Origin: Chlamydoabsidia padenii
Lineage: Eukaryota > Mucoromycota > Mucoromycetes > Mucorales > Cunninghamellaceae
DNA length: 64,000 bases
Reading direction: 5' to 3'
NCBI GenBank assembly: GCA_025330725.1
Contig: JAIWND010000023.1
Location: forward strand, 62,001 to 126,000
In this document: piece by piece, positions 11,305-64,000 of the stretch
Layout of the letters: each line of letters starts with the position of its first letter
How positions within the stretch are numbered: position 1 is the stretch's first letter
The notes under the pieces: generated by a model
The model's database searches: none
Seen by the model: only the letters and a program-made list of their open reading frames with translations
What the model was told of the DNA's origin: nothing
Made by a program: the position numbers and the translations under genes

Positions 11305-11980
11305 TTATTCACCAAACAATCTACGCACACGTTTCAAGACACTGTCTTTTTCGGGATCTAATATGATAGAAGAAAGGATTAGTATCTTTGTTCGATTACT
11401 GCTTTTTGTATATATTACCATATGGGTGATCCTTGGATGGTATTTCGAGGACAGTAGGGAATGCTTGATTGTGATTATCGATCAATTCTCGAATATCTTC
11501 AGCAACCTATGATAGTATGGTCAGTAGACAGTAGAAGAGTGATGATGAGGGACTTACGTGTTGGTTAATCAAGATGATGGCAATATCTTTTCGCTTGGTG
11601 AATTCCACAAACTGTTCTTCAATAGTCGATAACTGTGTTTCTACAAGAGAATATAAAACAACATGAGGTTAGTTAACGCGTTCCGGCCACCAATACATCT
11701 ACCCCATTTTATTCCAAGCACTTACTAGCATCCACCACCAAAAAGTTTCGTTTTTGTTGTTGGTTGACATGACCAATACCAGCCAAGAGTAAACCAGTGA
11801 CCGAGTCCTAACAAGGTGATATAACAAAGAGGAGTGTGTTAATACTGGGTCCCTGATGTAAAGAACACTCTTTCGGATAACAAGCAAACATTTAAGACCA
11901 AGTGATTTATCATACATTACCTCGTCACCAATAACAGCCAAGAAGTTTCTATCTTTTTGATTCACTTTTTCCGCGGACAT
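11305..11980 (-). CDS. VMA7: V-type H+-ATPase subunit F
   Basis: Five exons on the minus strand (11921-11980, 11726-11807, 11558-11640, 11419-11506, 11305-11357) join to 121 aa, the usual length of this subunit (about 118-121). The protein begins MSAEKVNQKDRNFLAVIGDE, then reads DSVTGLLLAGIGH, VEFTKRKDIAIILINQH and VAEDIRELIDN, and ends RVRRLFGE. These are the conserved blocks of eukaryotic V-ATPase subunit F, a V1-sector stalk protein needed for assembly and coupling of the vacuolar proton pump. The gene is head-to-head with the unknown gene starting at 12200, with 219 bp between the two start codons, so the promoters overlap. Confidence 0.95.
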
Positions 11981-12072
11981 GGTTTATGGAAAGGGCAAGT
12001 GATAAAATAAAAAAATAAAAAATGAAACAGGAAAGACGAAACCAAAGGAGCAGCAGGGCGGTTCATTCGGAA

Positions 12073-12084
12073 ACGGGATTTAAA
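12073..12084 (-). promoter_or_regulatory. Composite CCG/TTTAAA motif in a divergent promoter
   Basis: ACGGGATTTAAA lies 92 bp before the VMA7 start and 115 bp before the start of the gene at 12200. It is the only copy in this 219-bp bidirectional promoter. The same motif, in either orientation, lies at similar distances from many other start codons in the window. Its role is inferred. Confidence 0.5.
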
Positions 12085-12199
12085 AAAAGCAAACATCTGG
12101 CCAATGGCTGGCTGACTTTCAGCAGAGAGAATAGAAAAAATACAGGCGGCCCAACTCTTTCCTCTTTTCCTTTATCCTTTTTATTTATTTATATAATCA

Positions 12200-60782: not shown

Positions 60783-61672
60783 TATTAGTATTATATCTGT
60801 TACAGATGTTAGATGTTATTTTTATTACTAGTATAGTGTTTATGATTATTTTATATCAGGAGTGTTGAATAAAGTAATATGTGTATTCTATGTTTAGGAT
60901 TCCTTTATCTTTAAATGGAGATGACTTTATATCATCAAATTGACAATGTGTGATACATACGGAAGGTTGGGAAAAGTGATTGATGGAACACCGCCCCACT
61001 TTTTTTTTTTCCTTTTATCATCTTTAAATTTGGATCATAATAGATGGTACCCTTACCCATTGGCAATCACTCATCAGATACCAAAGGAAAAAAAAAAAAA
61101 AAAAAAAAAAAAAAAGGAAGGGGACACTTGACCTAATTATTGATACCACAGATCATTCTAACCAGCAAATTCCAAAGCATCTCATAGTCATCAAACGCAT
61201 TACCATAAATGATGTATGTTATACAATACTCTTATAAGACTTGTCGTCCTCATTATATAGTGTAGTTTGCGACATGGTCTACATATGGTGAAAGTCAAAG
61301 CAGGTCTGTTCCCGGAAAAATCTTGTGTCACTTCACTGCATTTTCATTCCAAAGTCAGAATATGACAATGATCTCTTTGCCCTATTGTATTCCCAGCCCG
61401 AGCGTTCCACTTTGTTAATTAATTTACGAATAACAAGACAAAATAGATAGTCAAAGATACATGTTTTATTATATGATGATATGCATGTGACGAAAAGATC
61501 TACTTTATCGCCCATGGACAAAAAAGGAAGTCGATTAAAGAGAGAGAGAGAGAGAAGATATATATATTTCAAGTAGTATAAAAAGTACATGATTACAATC
61601 AATAAAACTAAAACTACAAGGAGTGTGAGTGGGGAAAGACTATACTAATCAATGAGAAGGGGAGGAAGGGAT
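60783..61672. other. Convergent intergenic region
   Basis: Between the NAPE-PLD-like gene (+) and the LysM gene (-). AATAAA at 60869, an A tract at about 61086-61115, a GA repeat at about 61537-61555. No gene seen. Confidence 0.5.
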
Positions 61673-63096
61673 TTAAATGTAGTTTTGAATGTTACAGCTG
61701 CCACCTTCATAGATATCCACTTTGGTGATACGATGTTGTTTATCCAAAGTCTTGTAGTGGTTTTGCTTGTAAATATAGAAATCAATGTGATGACCACCAA
61801 AAGACCAGGACTTGTCATCGACGAGCAAACATCCATTATGCTTCTTTTTGGAGCCAGGGAGAGACCAACCGACCAATTGAGGGACATAAACCTTGGTACC
61901 TCTCTTCAAATCATTGGAGGCGATGGTGACATAGGGACGTAAAGGAGAGCCATTGGAAGTTAAACCATAAGGATCGTCATGCTTGTCGACTTCTTCAAAA
62001 CACTTGTAGTTGGAGCATGAGCAACCACCGAGATTCACAATCTTGGATCCAAGCACACCGGTACCTTCCATGACAAGAGCATCACCATAGTTTTCAGAGA
62101 CCTTGCCGAGAGATTTACCACTACAGGTCTTGATGGTCACTTTCTTCCCGCCAGATTTGTAAGCATCAGGGGTGGCGATCCAGTAGTAAGTGAAGGAAGA
62201 CTTGCTTTGGAGAAGTTTACGATGTTCCTTCTTGGCAGGTTGTTTCTTGGTGTGGGATGTCTTCTTCTTTTTGGGATGAGATTTCTTCTTGGCATGATGA
62301 GTGGGTTTCTTGTGAGAGACCTTGGAGGCGAGGTTGGACACCTTTTTGGAAATGCTGTTGTTGCCGGGCTTGACGCAGTAGGTTTTGCCATTGTCGAGAT
62401 TGTCGCAGCTTCCACGGTGGACTTTGGGATTCAGATCATAAAAGGTGTTCAAGCTGATTCCATTGGCCTTGGCAAGTTTGACACAAGTGTCAGAGCTGGT
62501 GACTAGAAGAATTGAGAAAAAAAAAAAAAAAAGATTGTCAGTCATTAGCTAGTTGATGGGGGAGTGTGTCAATTACCTTTGTGAGTTTTAGCGCAGCCAC
62601 TTGAAGAGTGATCCCCACCAGAGGATTCGGATCCAGTACCAATACAGTATTTCTTCCCATCATTCAAATTTGTACATTTATGATTAACTTGAGGATTCCA
62701 GGAGTAGAATTGATCAAGCTTGATACCGTACTTCTTGCTGAGGTTGATACAATTGTCGTTTCCACTAACTAACAGAGATAAAGAGAGATCAACAAAAGGA
62801 TGATTACGATAAGATAGCTTTTTTTTTTTTTTTAACTTACCAGTATGGTACTTGTTACATTCAGCACGTTTAACTAATTCAATAGTAGTTTCAGAGATAT
62901 CAGCATCCGAGGAATAGTTATCACGTTCAACAAGTTCAAAGTCGGCTTCAGGAGTATCTTCGTCACCAAAGGCAGAGAGGTAATAGTCAGAGTAAGCTTG
63001 AGGAGTAGTAGCAATATCAGTAGATTGTTGGGCAGATACAAATCGAGCTGTTGCAAGCACGAAAAGTCCAAGAGTAGATAAGGTGGGTAGGTGCAT
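61673..63096 (-). CDS. Secreted LysM protein with C-terminal 3D/RlpA-like domain
   Basis: Three exons (62841-63096, 62577-62768, 61673-62502) give 425 aa. A signal peptide (MHLPTLSTLGLFVLATARFV|SAQ) and an acidic propeptide ending LVKRAEC (possible KR cleavage) precede two LysM modules: NCINLSKKYGIKLDQFYSWN...KKYCIG and TCVKLAKANGISLNTFYDLN...KTYCVK. A Lys/His-rich linker follows, then a double-psi-barrel-like domain with YYWIATPDAYKSGG, RPYVTIASNDLKRGTKVYVP and SWSFGGHHIDFYIY, whose two Asp fit the 3D pattern. LysM modules bind chitin or related glycans, so a cell-wall or secreted chitin-binding role is likely; the barrel domain might act on glycan. Of two AG acceptors at intron 1, the first (before TTAGTGG) keeps frame. 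Confidence 0.85.
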
Positions 63097-64000
63097 TCTA
63101 ACAAGTCAGGAAGTAATTGTTGAAGTAATGAAGGTGGTGAATGACAAAAGTAACAAGTAGAGTGTCGTGTAATAGTCAACGGTAGTACCGCTGAAAAGGG
63201 TTATAGAGAATAAGAATGAGGGGAAGGGGGGGGATTGGGGTTGATAAAAAAAAAGGATAAAGAAGAAGAAGAAGAGCGAAAGAAAAGGAAACCCGCCAAA
63301 AAGTCTATATTTATTGAAATCCAGCACCGGGATTTGAAATTTGAAAAAGTTACACGACGTAGATTGCATTACTTTGTTCCTTGTGGCCAAGATATTTTCT
63401 TCGAGTTCCATTTTCCTATTGCCCATTGTAGGATATTTTCCCATTTCTTTTTTTGAACCACTTGATCGATTTACTCAATGTTGGGGTTTCAAGTCCATTT
63501 GAACAAAGGCATGAAAGCAAATAAAAATCTTGACCCCTTTTTCTTTTTTCTGTAGAGTAGATGACAGGAAGGAAGTCTTGATCTAAAGAGAAGCCAAACC
63601 TGTTTGACATTCTGCTTCTTTCCCTATTTCGTTTTGAAAACGGACATGGAAAAACGAACAAAAGAAACAGTATAGATTTGGTAATGTCGGGATTTTAAAA
63701 TTTTCGAAATGAATAGTTATCCATGTGTCACTACCAAGGAAAAATAAGCTCGTGGGATAGGGACAAGGTTGTTTAAAAGCTCATTCTATTGGTCGAGGTA
63801 TATTACCAACCCAATCGCACCTACTCATCTTTCTTTTCTCTTTTTCCTCTTCTTCTTTTTCTTAAGTGTGGAAAAAATGATGTATAGGTGAAAGCATATT
63901 ACTTGGTAGCACAGCTTGTAGAAACGAGTTGGTCAAAGCCACGATTTGGAACATTGTGATATTAACAACCTATAGACTTGTTTCTTTTTTTTTTTTTTTT
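63097..64000. other. Upstream region of the LysM gene
   Basis: No further gene seen. Motif copies CCGGGATTTGAAA (63327-63339, 230 bp before the ATG) and TCGGGATTTTAAAA (63687-63700). The purine-rich stretch 63245-63290 is the complement of a CT-rich leader. Confidence 0.45.

Follow-up and report, generated by a model that had tools for sequence, protein, structure and literature searches.

Which protein, if any, reads a short sequence that recurs ahead of the genes of an Absidia-like mould? The question is raised by a stretch of 64,000 nucleotides from Chlamydoabsidia padenii (contig C16, positions 62001-126000; hereafter the window), in which an earlier note had described a composite motif, TTTNAAA(T/C)(C/G)CCGC, before most genes and had proposed that it joins a site for LIN54-like proteins to half a site for E2F. 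What can be read directly from the DNA is a site with a fixed inner gap, an excess over chance, a peak in promoters, a lack of orientation bias, nucleosome-sized steps between copies, and flanks that are GC-poor and TpA-rich. From these features the motif may be the site of a general regulatory factor, that is, a nucleosome barrier of the kind formed by Reb1 or Abf1, and we give this reading a probability of roughly 0.6. The window has a GC content of 38.7%, and one of its reading frames, of 651 residues, is 96% identical to a protein of Absidia glauca and 89% identical to a protein of Halteromyces radiatus. The genome (34,228,448 bp in 95 contigs) was searched by pattern, and a sample of 324 kb (the window, C1:200001-400000 and C2:200001-260000; approximately 1% of the genome) was analyzed base by base.

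Abundance of the motif and its place before genes

The recurrence of a composite motif far above chance was borne out both in the window, where TTTNAAAYSCCGC has 28 matches with at most one mismatch compared with 1.15 expected (sd 1.08; 100 dinucleotide shuffles), and in the genome, where the originally described pattern has 2,615 exact copies (1,300 + 1,315) compared with 5 for the reversed pattern. With at most one mismatch, the same pattern has 132 sites in the 324 kb and none when reversed. The related pattern TTYAAAYSCCGMY has 5,339 exact copies genome-wide, compared with 11 when it is read backwards, and AAATCCCG is the top 8-mer besides simple repeats (87 seen, 7.5 expected from trinucleotides).

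A refined position weight matrix (PWM) was built from the 324 kb by iteration, the sites being chosen with the matrix itself. Its 14-letter consensus is WTT(C>T)AAA(T>C)(C>G)CCG(C/A)(C/T), with column frequencies, from column 0, of (T.61/A.31)TT(C.55/T.24)AAA(T.62/C.30)(C.68/G.17)CCG(C.47/A.41)(C.49/T.39). The information summed over columns -1 to 13 is approximately 16.7 bits, and flanking columns hold at most 0.11 bits each. Sites of at least 11 bits number 263 in the 324 kb, compared with 9-36 for 20 column-shuffled matrices, and 47 in the window (35 of these 47 are located below). Sites of at least 12 bits number 243; this set was used for density, spacing and hexamer counts, and its density extrapolates, as an estimate only, to some 24,000 sites genome-wide. 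The gap between TTTNAAA and CCCGC is fixed, being 1 bp in 27 copies, with 0-3 copies at every other gap from 0 to 11. A version with one added base occurs 640 times in the genome (13 times reversed); six of its nine matches in the 324 kb are TTTAAAA, which can also be read in the normal register, A being then the variable base; none of the nine begins TTC. Of the 21 intervals listed in the earlier note, 17 match its pattern with at most one mismatch, while those at 27603, 31459, 33816 and 55045 have at least two; the refined matrix scores three of these four at 18-21 bits and the one at 27603 at just 10.0 bits.

The matrix also bears on a possible TFIIIC B-box, or tRNA T-arm, origin of the sites (GTTCAAATCC), since the letters TTCAAATCCCG resemble a tRNA T-arm. 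A B-box is described as having an invariant G ahead of TT and an invariant C behind it. Two of the 243 sites do lie inside tRNA genes, but in the matrix G stands before TT at a frequency of 5% and C after it at 55%, and the 324 kb contain three tRNA genes compared with 243 sites. The B-box was rejected on the matrix and the tRNA scan, and its probability is practically nil.

The position of the sites relative to genes was determined with an ab initio gene finder written for this analysis, which gave 127 genes of at least 120 amino acids in the 324 kb, with predicted start codons. At 11 bits, 18 sites lie 60-80 bp upstream of predicted ATGs, 26 lie at 80-100 bp and 17 at 100-120 bp, and each 20-bp bin between 60 bp before and 200 bp after the ATG holds 0-2. 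A site is found 40-160 bp upstream of the ATG in 68 of the 127 genes, compared with 5 of 127 in the mirrored downstream window, and at 10 bits 89 of 127 genes have a site at 40-250 bp. The statement that the motif precedes most genes is thus about right, and both the positional peak (60-120 bp upstream of predicted ATGs) and a promoter element of genome-wide occurrence are supported. Three of the distances that had been given were checked and were reproduced closely: 62 bp for the RCE1-like gene (63 previously), 106 bp for gene 17957 (107) and 101 bp for the eEF3-like gene (102). A test independent of the gene finder, using open reading frames of at least 200 amino acids, was weaker and in the same direction (14/62 with a site versus 2/62). 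The density of sites of at least 12 bits is 4.91 per kb in the promoter window, 1.47 in other intergenic DNA, 0.38 in introns and 0.09 in exons, with a null of 0.03-0.04.

A core promoter of the type formed by the TFIIB recognition element (BRE) and TATA likewise has a GC block beside an AT block upstream of the gene. An element of this type, with TTYAAA replacing TATA, would account for the AT-rich hexamer abutting a GC-rich block and for a location 60-120 bp upstream of the ATG. Enrichment of TATAAA is not clear (8/89 site-bearing promoters compared with 8/89 in a control region), which would suit a replacement of TATA and at the same time distinguishes the motif from BRE + TATA. However, the motif occurs in multiple copies in intergenic DNA, its offset to the predicted ATG is spread over approximately 60 bp, and its orientation is not fixed: 39 sites have the same orientation as the gene and 38 the opposite, a lack of preference that concerns placement and not function. 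A core-promoter element of this type is therefore very improbable. CCAAT-type words are not clearly enriched either (CCAAT 13 versus 9 and ATTGG 17 versus 12 in the control, with no significance test).

A CT-rich stretch, presumably the leader and start region, begins approximately 45 bp past the start of the site, with peak frequencies of approximately 0.54 for T and 0.28 for C (65 site-gene instances). Leaders upstream of predicted ATGs in the 324 kb are CT-rich in general (T approximately 0.45-0.50, C approximately 0.22-0.26 and G below 0.1 from -50 to -10). This leader is the main other feature that the promoters have in common, and CT and poly(T) tracts dominate the other promoter words. 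A possible second, rarer promoter word is AAAAGTGG: of the stretches lying 20-170 bp upstream of predicted ATGs, 10 of 127 contain it, compared with 1 of 252 control stretches.

Of the 127 genes, 100 were scanned with Pfam, each by its longest exon. The site-bearing genes with matches act in translation (eIF1A, EF-G, tRNA ligase), ribosome assembly (EMG1, bystin), chromatin (Rsc7, a SWIRM-associated/Myb protein, SPT8), metabolism and transport, and by inspection are broadly housekeeping. The presence of a site at 40-250 bp shows no difference by Pfam status (36/54 genes with a match, 32/46 without; P = 0.83), and 3 of the 100 scanned genes have a site in the mirrored window.

Spacing of the sites and composition of their flanks

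The distances between the 243 sites of at least 12 bits cluster below 50 bp, at 195-250 bp and at 345-400 bp, with few in between. This quantised spacing is a new observation of the present analysis. Compared with a null in which sites were jittered by up to 120 bp, the unfiltered set has 29 pairs at 195-249 bp (12.2 expected, sd 3.2) and 21 at 345-399 bp (13.5 expected). The intervening classes are depleted, with 9 pairs at 250-344 bp (21.9 expected) and 11 at 50-194 bp (29.3 expected), the latter shortage being overstated because the jitter smears the class below 50 bp into the next. The best period is 168 bp, and none of 500 jitters was as strong.

Some of the sites lie in repeats, and copies might instead have been spread by a mobile or tandem repeat. 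A dispersed family carries the motif in 20 of the 243 sites, and in eight 3-kb loci of contig C1 (L001-L008) 13 of 35 sites have repeated flanks. However, the flanks of the matrix are nearly flat, 223 of the 243 sites are without related flanks (E-value 1e-6, at least 60 bp), and both the promoter peak and the spacing survive removal of the repeat sites. Repeat dispersal as the origin of the copies is contradicted by the flanks and has hardly any probability left.

After the 20 repeat-family sites and the 2 tRNA sites were dropped, 221 of the 243 sites remained. These have 19 pairs at 195-250 bp (8.8 expected, sd 2.7; P 0.0005), 19 at 345-400 bp (10.1 expected; P 0.005) and 17 below 50 bp (8.3 expected), with 8 at 50-194 bp (22.2 expected), 6 at 251-344 bp (15.3 expected) and 12 at 401-499 bp (16.7 expected). 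The best period is 162 bp for distances up to 600 bp and 172 bp for distances up to 1,100 bp; in neither case was any of 1,000 jitters as strong. When sites within 60 bp were merged and a flat expectation was used, 17 of 48 pairs fell at 195-250 bp (7.5 expected, P 0.0006). Divergent genes fail to explain the 19 pairs at 195-250 bp, as just one pair joins two promoter-window sites; four have one such member and 14 have none. In L001-L008, where there are no tRNA genes, the 22 sites kept after the 13 with repeated flanks were dropped give distances up to 420 bp of 31, 147, 199, 209, 218, 226, 230, 356 and 373. Four E2F loci (L035-L038) give unfiltered distances of 6, 13, 85, 200, 212, 225 and 365.

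Most transcription-factor sites lie in nucleosome-free DNA, and the motif might be an ordinary upstream activator site whose spacing is a passive result of accessible linkers. The position of the site a short way ahead of the CT-rich leader agrees with such a role. In contrast, an ordinary activator would not be expected at about half of the examined genes regardless of Pfam status, nor would it account for quantised spacing away from promoters, to which the 14 pairs without a promoter-window member belong. We regard this explanation as unlikely.

The composition of the flanks was profiled with the motif letters masked and genes left out. At 60-150 bp on either side of the site, a zone of nucleosome size, GC and CpG decrease and TpA and ApT increase. 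The fixed-window contrast for the full set is 0.026 for GC (null 0.0008, sd 0.0042) and -0.0275 for TpA (null -0.0008, sd 0.0041), and for 77 isolated sites it is 0.019 and -0.023, respectively, still beyond the null. For 192 noncoding sites, with repeat and tRNA sites dropped, the value at 60-150 bp minus that at 160-400 bp is -0.0295 for GC (null -0.0013, sd 0.0040) and +0.0122 for TpA (null -0.0048, sd 0.0045). Later compositional cycles are partly significant in the full set (GC 0/300 jitters, TpA 0.03, CpG 0.04, ApT 0.07).

A proposed general regulatory factor and its alternatives

The proposed model for the action of the motif is as follows. One abundant sequence-specific protein, or one fixed complex, would bind the motif in either orientation. 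The factor would sit a short way before the CT-rich leader in about half of the genes and, once bound, would keep the promoter stretch free of nucleosomes. It would also act as a barrier from which nucleosomes are phased, such that nucleosomes occupy the gaps between sites, and transcription would begin a few tens of bases downstream. The 195-250 bp gap and the step of approximately 160-172 bp fit such a barrier with phased nucleosomes, as a gap of one nucleosome would need a core of 147 bp plus room on both sides. It is this quantised spacing, together with the precedent of the yeast general regulatory factors, that leads to the reading proposed here.

In yeast reconstitutions, remodelers set phased arrays symmetrically about bound Reb1 (PMC8163753), and general regulatory factors are reported to turn over between lineages (PMC2897762). 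The sites of Reb1, Abf1, Cbf1 and Rsc3 in budding yeasts are thought both to open promoters and to act as phasing barriers, much as is proposed for the motif; their repertoire differs by lineage, and a set of motifs is reported to be depleted in Yarrowia lipolytica only (PMC2897762, PMC8163753). Unlike the budding-yeast sites, the motif has a different sequence, is carried at a constrained place by about half of the examined genes, and shows quantised distances between its own genomic copies.

Several points weigh against a general regulatory factor. The spacing was noticed post hoc, and its classes were defined on the data used to test them, which makes the P values optimistic; raising the threshold to its strictest value (14 bits; 198 sites, with repeats) weakens the period test to P 0.012. 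Genome-wide, same-strand AAATCCCG pairs number 54 at 220-250 bp and 23 at 251-280 bp (P 0.0008), a test that includes the repeat family and partly overlaps DNA already analyzed. Exact same-strand sites of C1 outside the 200-kb stretch, taken from among the matches listed and with repeats kept, give distances below 420 bp of 167, 185, 199, 240, 248, 344, 364, 382 and 396; these fit more loosely, with 167 and 185 outside the favoured classes and 344 borderline. The compositional windows were picked after the profile was seen, and the second and third compositional cycles are not significant in the 77 isolated sites, so the later cycles may come from neighbouring sites. Finally, even at 10 bits a site at 40-250 bp is lacking in 38 of the 127 genes, and 142 of the 243 sites are intergenic yet do not lie 40-160 bp upstream of a predicted ATG.

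The interpretation first offered for the motif was a composite of a cell cycle genes homology region (CHR) and an E2F half-site. In its fullest form, this would be a fused cell cycle-dependent element (CDE)/CHR of the DREAM type, in which CCCGC would be the site of E2F/DP and TTYAAA that of a LIN54-like CXC protein, at housekeeping and not cell-cycle genes. The LIN54 consensus is reported as TTYRAA (PMC4974476). A hybrid motif of worms has an E2F-like half 5' of a CHR-like half, with similar motifs in human and fly (PMC3093354), and the reverse complement of the present motif, with its GC-rich half 5' of TTTGAA, has the same order. Zygomycetes are reported to have retained E2F and lost pRb (PMC4862756), and the genome contains six E2F_TDP domains (on C7, C56, C19, C67, C1 and C8).

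The likeness of the AT half to CHR stands in part: 191 of the 243 sites have a pyrimidine as third base, but just 137 have the whole of TTYRAA intact. The likeness of the CCCGC half to E2F sites did not hold up. The GGCG/CGCG alternatives expected of E2F are rare (TTYAAAYSGCGMY has 96 copies genome-wide, above a control of 6, versus 5,339 for the motif pattern), and CCCGA is nearly as common as CCCGC (103 versus 114 of 243 sites). The human arrangement of CDE, four nucleotides and CHR occurs 126 times compared with 64 for the control, a twofold excess, whereas the motif itself has one nucleotide between its halves. The site-bearing genes show no cell-cycle bias by inspection of the Pfam matches (100 of 127 genes); an MCM gene has a site and a Dbf4-like gene does not. 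LIN54-type CXC, LIN9 DIRP and RB_A domains were searched for in the genome and not found, weak negatives given that the searches had no eukaryotic positive control. A DNA pattern for CXC gave three places with one mismatch; the likeliest, on C33, is a short frame and not a CXC gene.

The motif thus resembles the CDE/CHR and hybrid E2F/LIN-54 elements of DREAM and DRM (PMC3093354, PMC4974476, PMC5683655) in having a GC-rich half beside a TTYRAA-like half, and in their order. It differs from them in that its halves are one base apart (TTYAAA-Y-SCCG), the GC half is not E2F-like and its bearers are broadly housekeeping. The motif may function in part as a CHR does; by the tests applied here it is not a CDE/CHR, and a fused element of this type is distinctly improbable. 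As a separate observation, E2F is present in the genome with no detectable pocket protein (the RB_A search, made with no positive control, was empty).

A more tentative extension of the general regulatory factor reading, less likely than not, is that a single lineage-specific factor sets up a nucleosome grid and selection keeps its sites at one- and two-nucleosome spacing; the site could descend from an ancestral site of CHR type, freed from cell-cycle duty upon loss of the pocket protein. Were the grid to exist, the genome sequence of an Absidia-like mould would itself spell out, as a repeated 14-bp mark, how chromatin is organised in its promoters and intergenic DNA. The start of genes in early-diverging fungi seems to be little described, and no promoter-motif or nucleosome map for the group was among the matches listed. 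Among those matches, literature on promoter motifs or nucleosome maps of Mucorales or Mucoromycota did not report the motif, and of 49 papers found to contain one or more of six literal motif strings, the 30 listed contain no 13-mer and by their titles concern other organisms. With the motif as a probe (TTTCAAATCCCGCC), it might be possible to fish out a protein with a main role in opening promoters in Mucorales, among whose members are agents of mucormycosis. The motif would also allow nucleosome positions to be read in part from the sequence of a non-model fungus, and it has a bearing on what took the place of the E2F/Rb machinery, or gave it a new use, in fungal evolution.

Motif copies and other features of the window

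The copies are given here with strand and PWM score. The first, at 12072-12086 (-, 16.2 bits), lies between the divergent genes 11980(-) and 12200(+), 91 and 113 bp from their respective predicted ATGs. Two copies offset by 13 bp lie upstream of the RCE1-like gene (-), at 14842-14856 (+, 14.8 bits; 62 bp from the ATG) and 14855-14869 (+, 15.6 bits; exact match); the gene near the former has an Rce1-like Pfam match. These are followed by copies at 14940-14954 (+, 13.7 bits) and 16124-16138 (-, 17.9 bits; exact match). The copy at 18064-18078 (+, 18.5 bits) is 106 bp from the ATG of gene 17957(-), and the next two, at 18234-18248 (+, 18.1 bits) and 18476-18490 (-, 16.9 bits), follow at steps of 170 and 242 bp. 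After a copy at 19876-19890 (+, 13.7 bits), the copy at 19996-20010 (+, 15.3 bits) lies 123 bp upstream of gene 20134(+). Further copies are at 22772-22786 (+, 16.1 bits), 24349-24363 (+, 18.6 bits; exact match), 25923-25937 (+, 16.9 bits) and 26319-26333 (+, 16.7 bits), the last being upstream of gene 26528(+) and 194 bp from its model ATG. An exact match at 30062-30076 (-, 21.8 bits) is followed by a copy 76 bp upstream of gene 30848(-), at 30925-30939 (-, 20.5 bits), and by copies at 31459-31473 (-, 18.1 bits) and 33814-33828 (+, 21.0 bits).

Three copies belong to the repeat family and were excluded from the filtered spacing test: 34509-34523 (+, 22.8 bits), which heads a tandem repeat unit, and 38837-38851 (-, 12.8 bits) and 39070-39084 (-, 18.3 bits), each in a repeat unit. 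The exact match at 43132-43146 (-, 21.8 bits) is 352 bp from the copy at 43484-43498 (+, 15.7 bits), and is followed in turn by copies at 43702-43716 (-, 13.8 bits), 45070-45084 (+, 16.0 bits) and 46631-46645 (+, 18.1 bits). The copy at 51150-51164 (+, 19.9 bits) lies 101 bp upstream of a New1/Elf1-type eEF3-like gene (ATG 51266), and another is at 53556-53570 (+, 19.0 bits). Gene 55135(+) has two copies upstream, at 55023-55037 (-, 16.6 bits; 97 bp) and 55045-55059 (-, 18.1 bits; 75 bp). The remaining copies are at 56898-56912 (+, 19.1 bits), 57059-57073 (-, 20.6 bits; exact match), 58528-58542 (-, 13.2 bits; 168 bp upstream of gene 58711(+)), 63326-63340 (-, 19.0 bits; 229 bp upstream of gene 63096(-)) and 63686-63700 (-, 18.3 bits; 360 bp from the previous copy).

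The gene at 51266-54707 had been called eEF3. It is indeed eEF3-like, and the New1/Elf1 type is the closer one: its relatives include proteins annotated as mRNA export factor elf1 or [NU+] prion formation protein 1, and among the matches listed many full-length relatives have a precomputed chromodomain (PF00385).

The multicopy repeat family (20 units aligned) has units approximately 230-245 bp apart, often in tandem, and itself carries motif sites some 230-250 bp from one another. It occurs at 34275-34746 and 38614-39084 of the window and also at loci L026, L017, L021, L029, L001, L002, L005 and L008. Most units start with the motif, followed by approximately 185 conserved nucleotides that end in TTTGTAA or similar and a poly(A) run. 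In ten loci, no Rfam match to the unit reached the gathering score; the window stretch gave one match at chance level (E-value: 0.41), and no consensus fold was found on the strand tried. Possible identities are a non-coding RNA that lacks annotation and a satellite-like unit. Two tRNA genes, a tRNA-Leu (CAA) at 56933-57016 of the window and a tRNA-Thr (AGT) at L015:8600-8673, each contain a match to the motif matrix of at least 12 bits. Overlapping repeats of approximately 470-660 bp with 89-90% identity occupy 35830-37416, where the predicted frames are short only. Two copies of a 1.5-kb stretch (39613-41144 and 43754-45269; 70% identity) cover two predicted genes and one, respectively, and a phosphoesterase match was obtained for one exon in the first copy; this pair is probably a local gene duplication.

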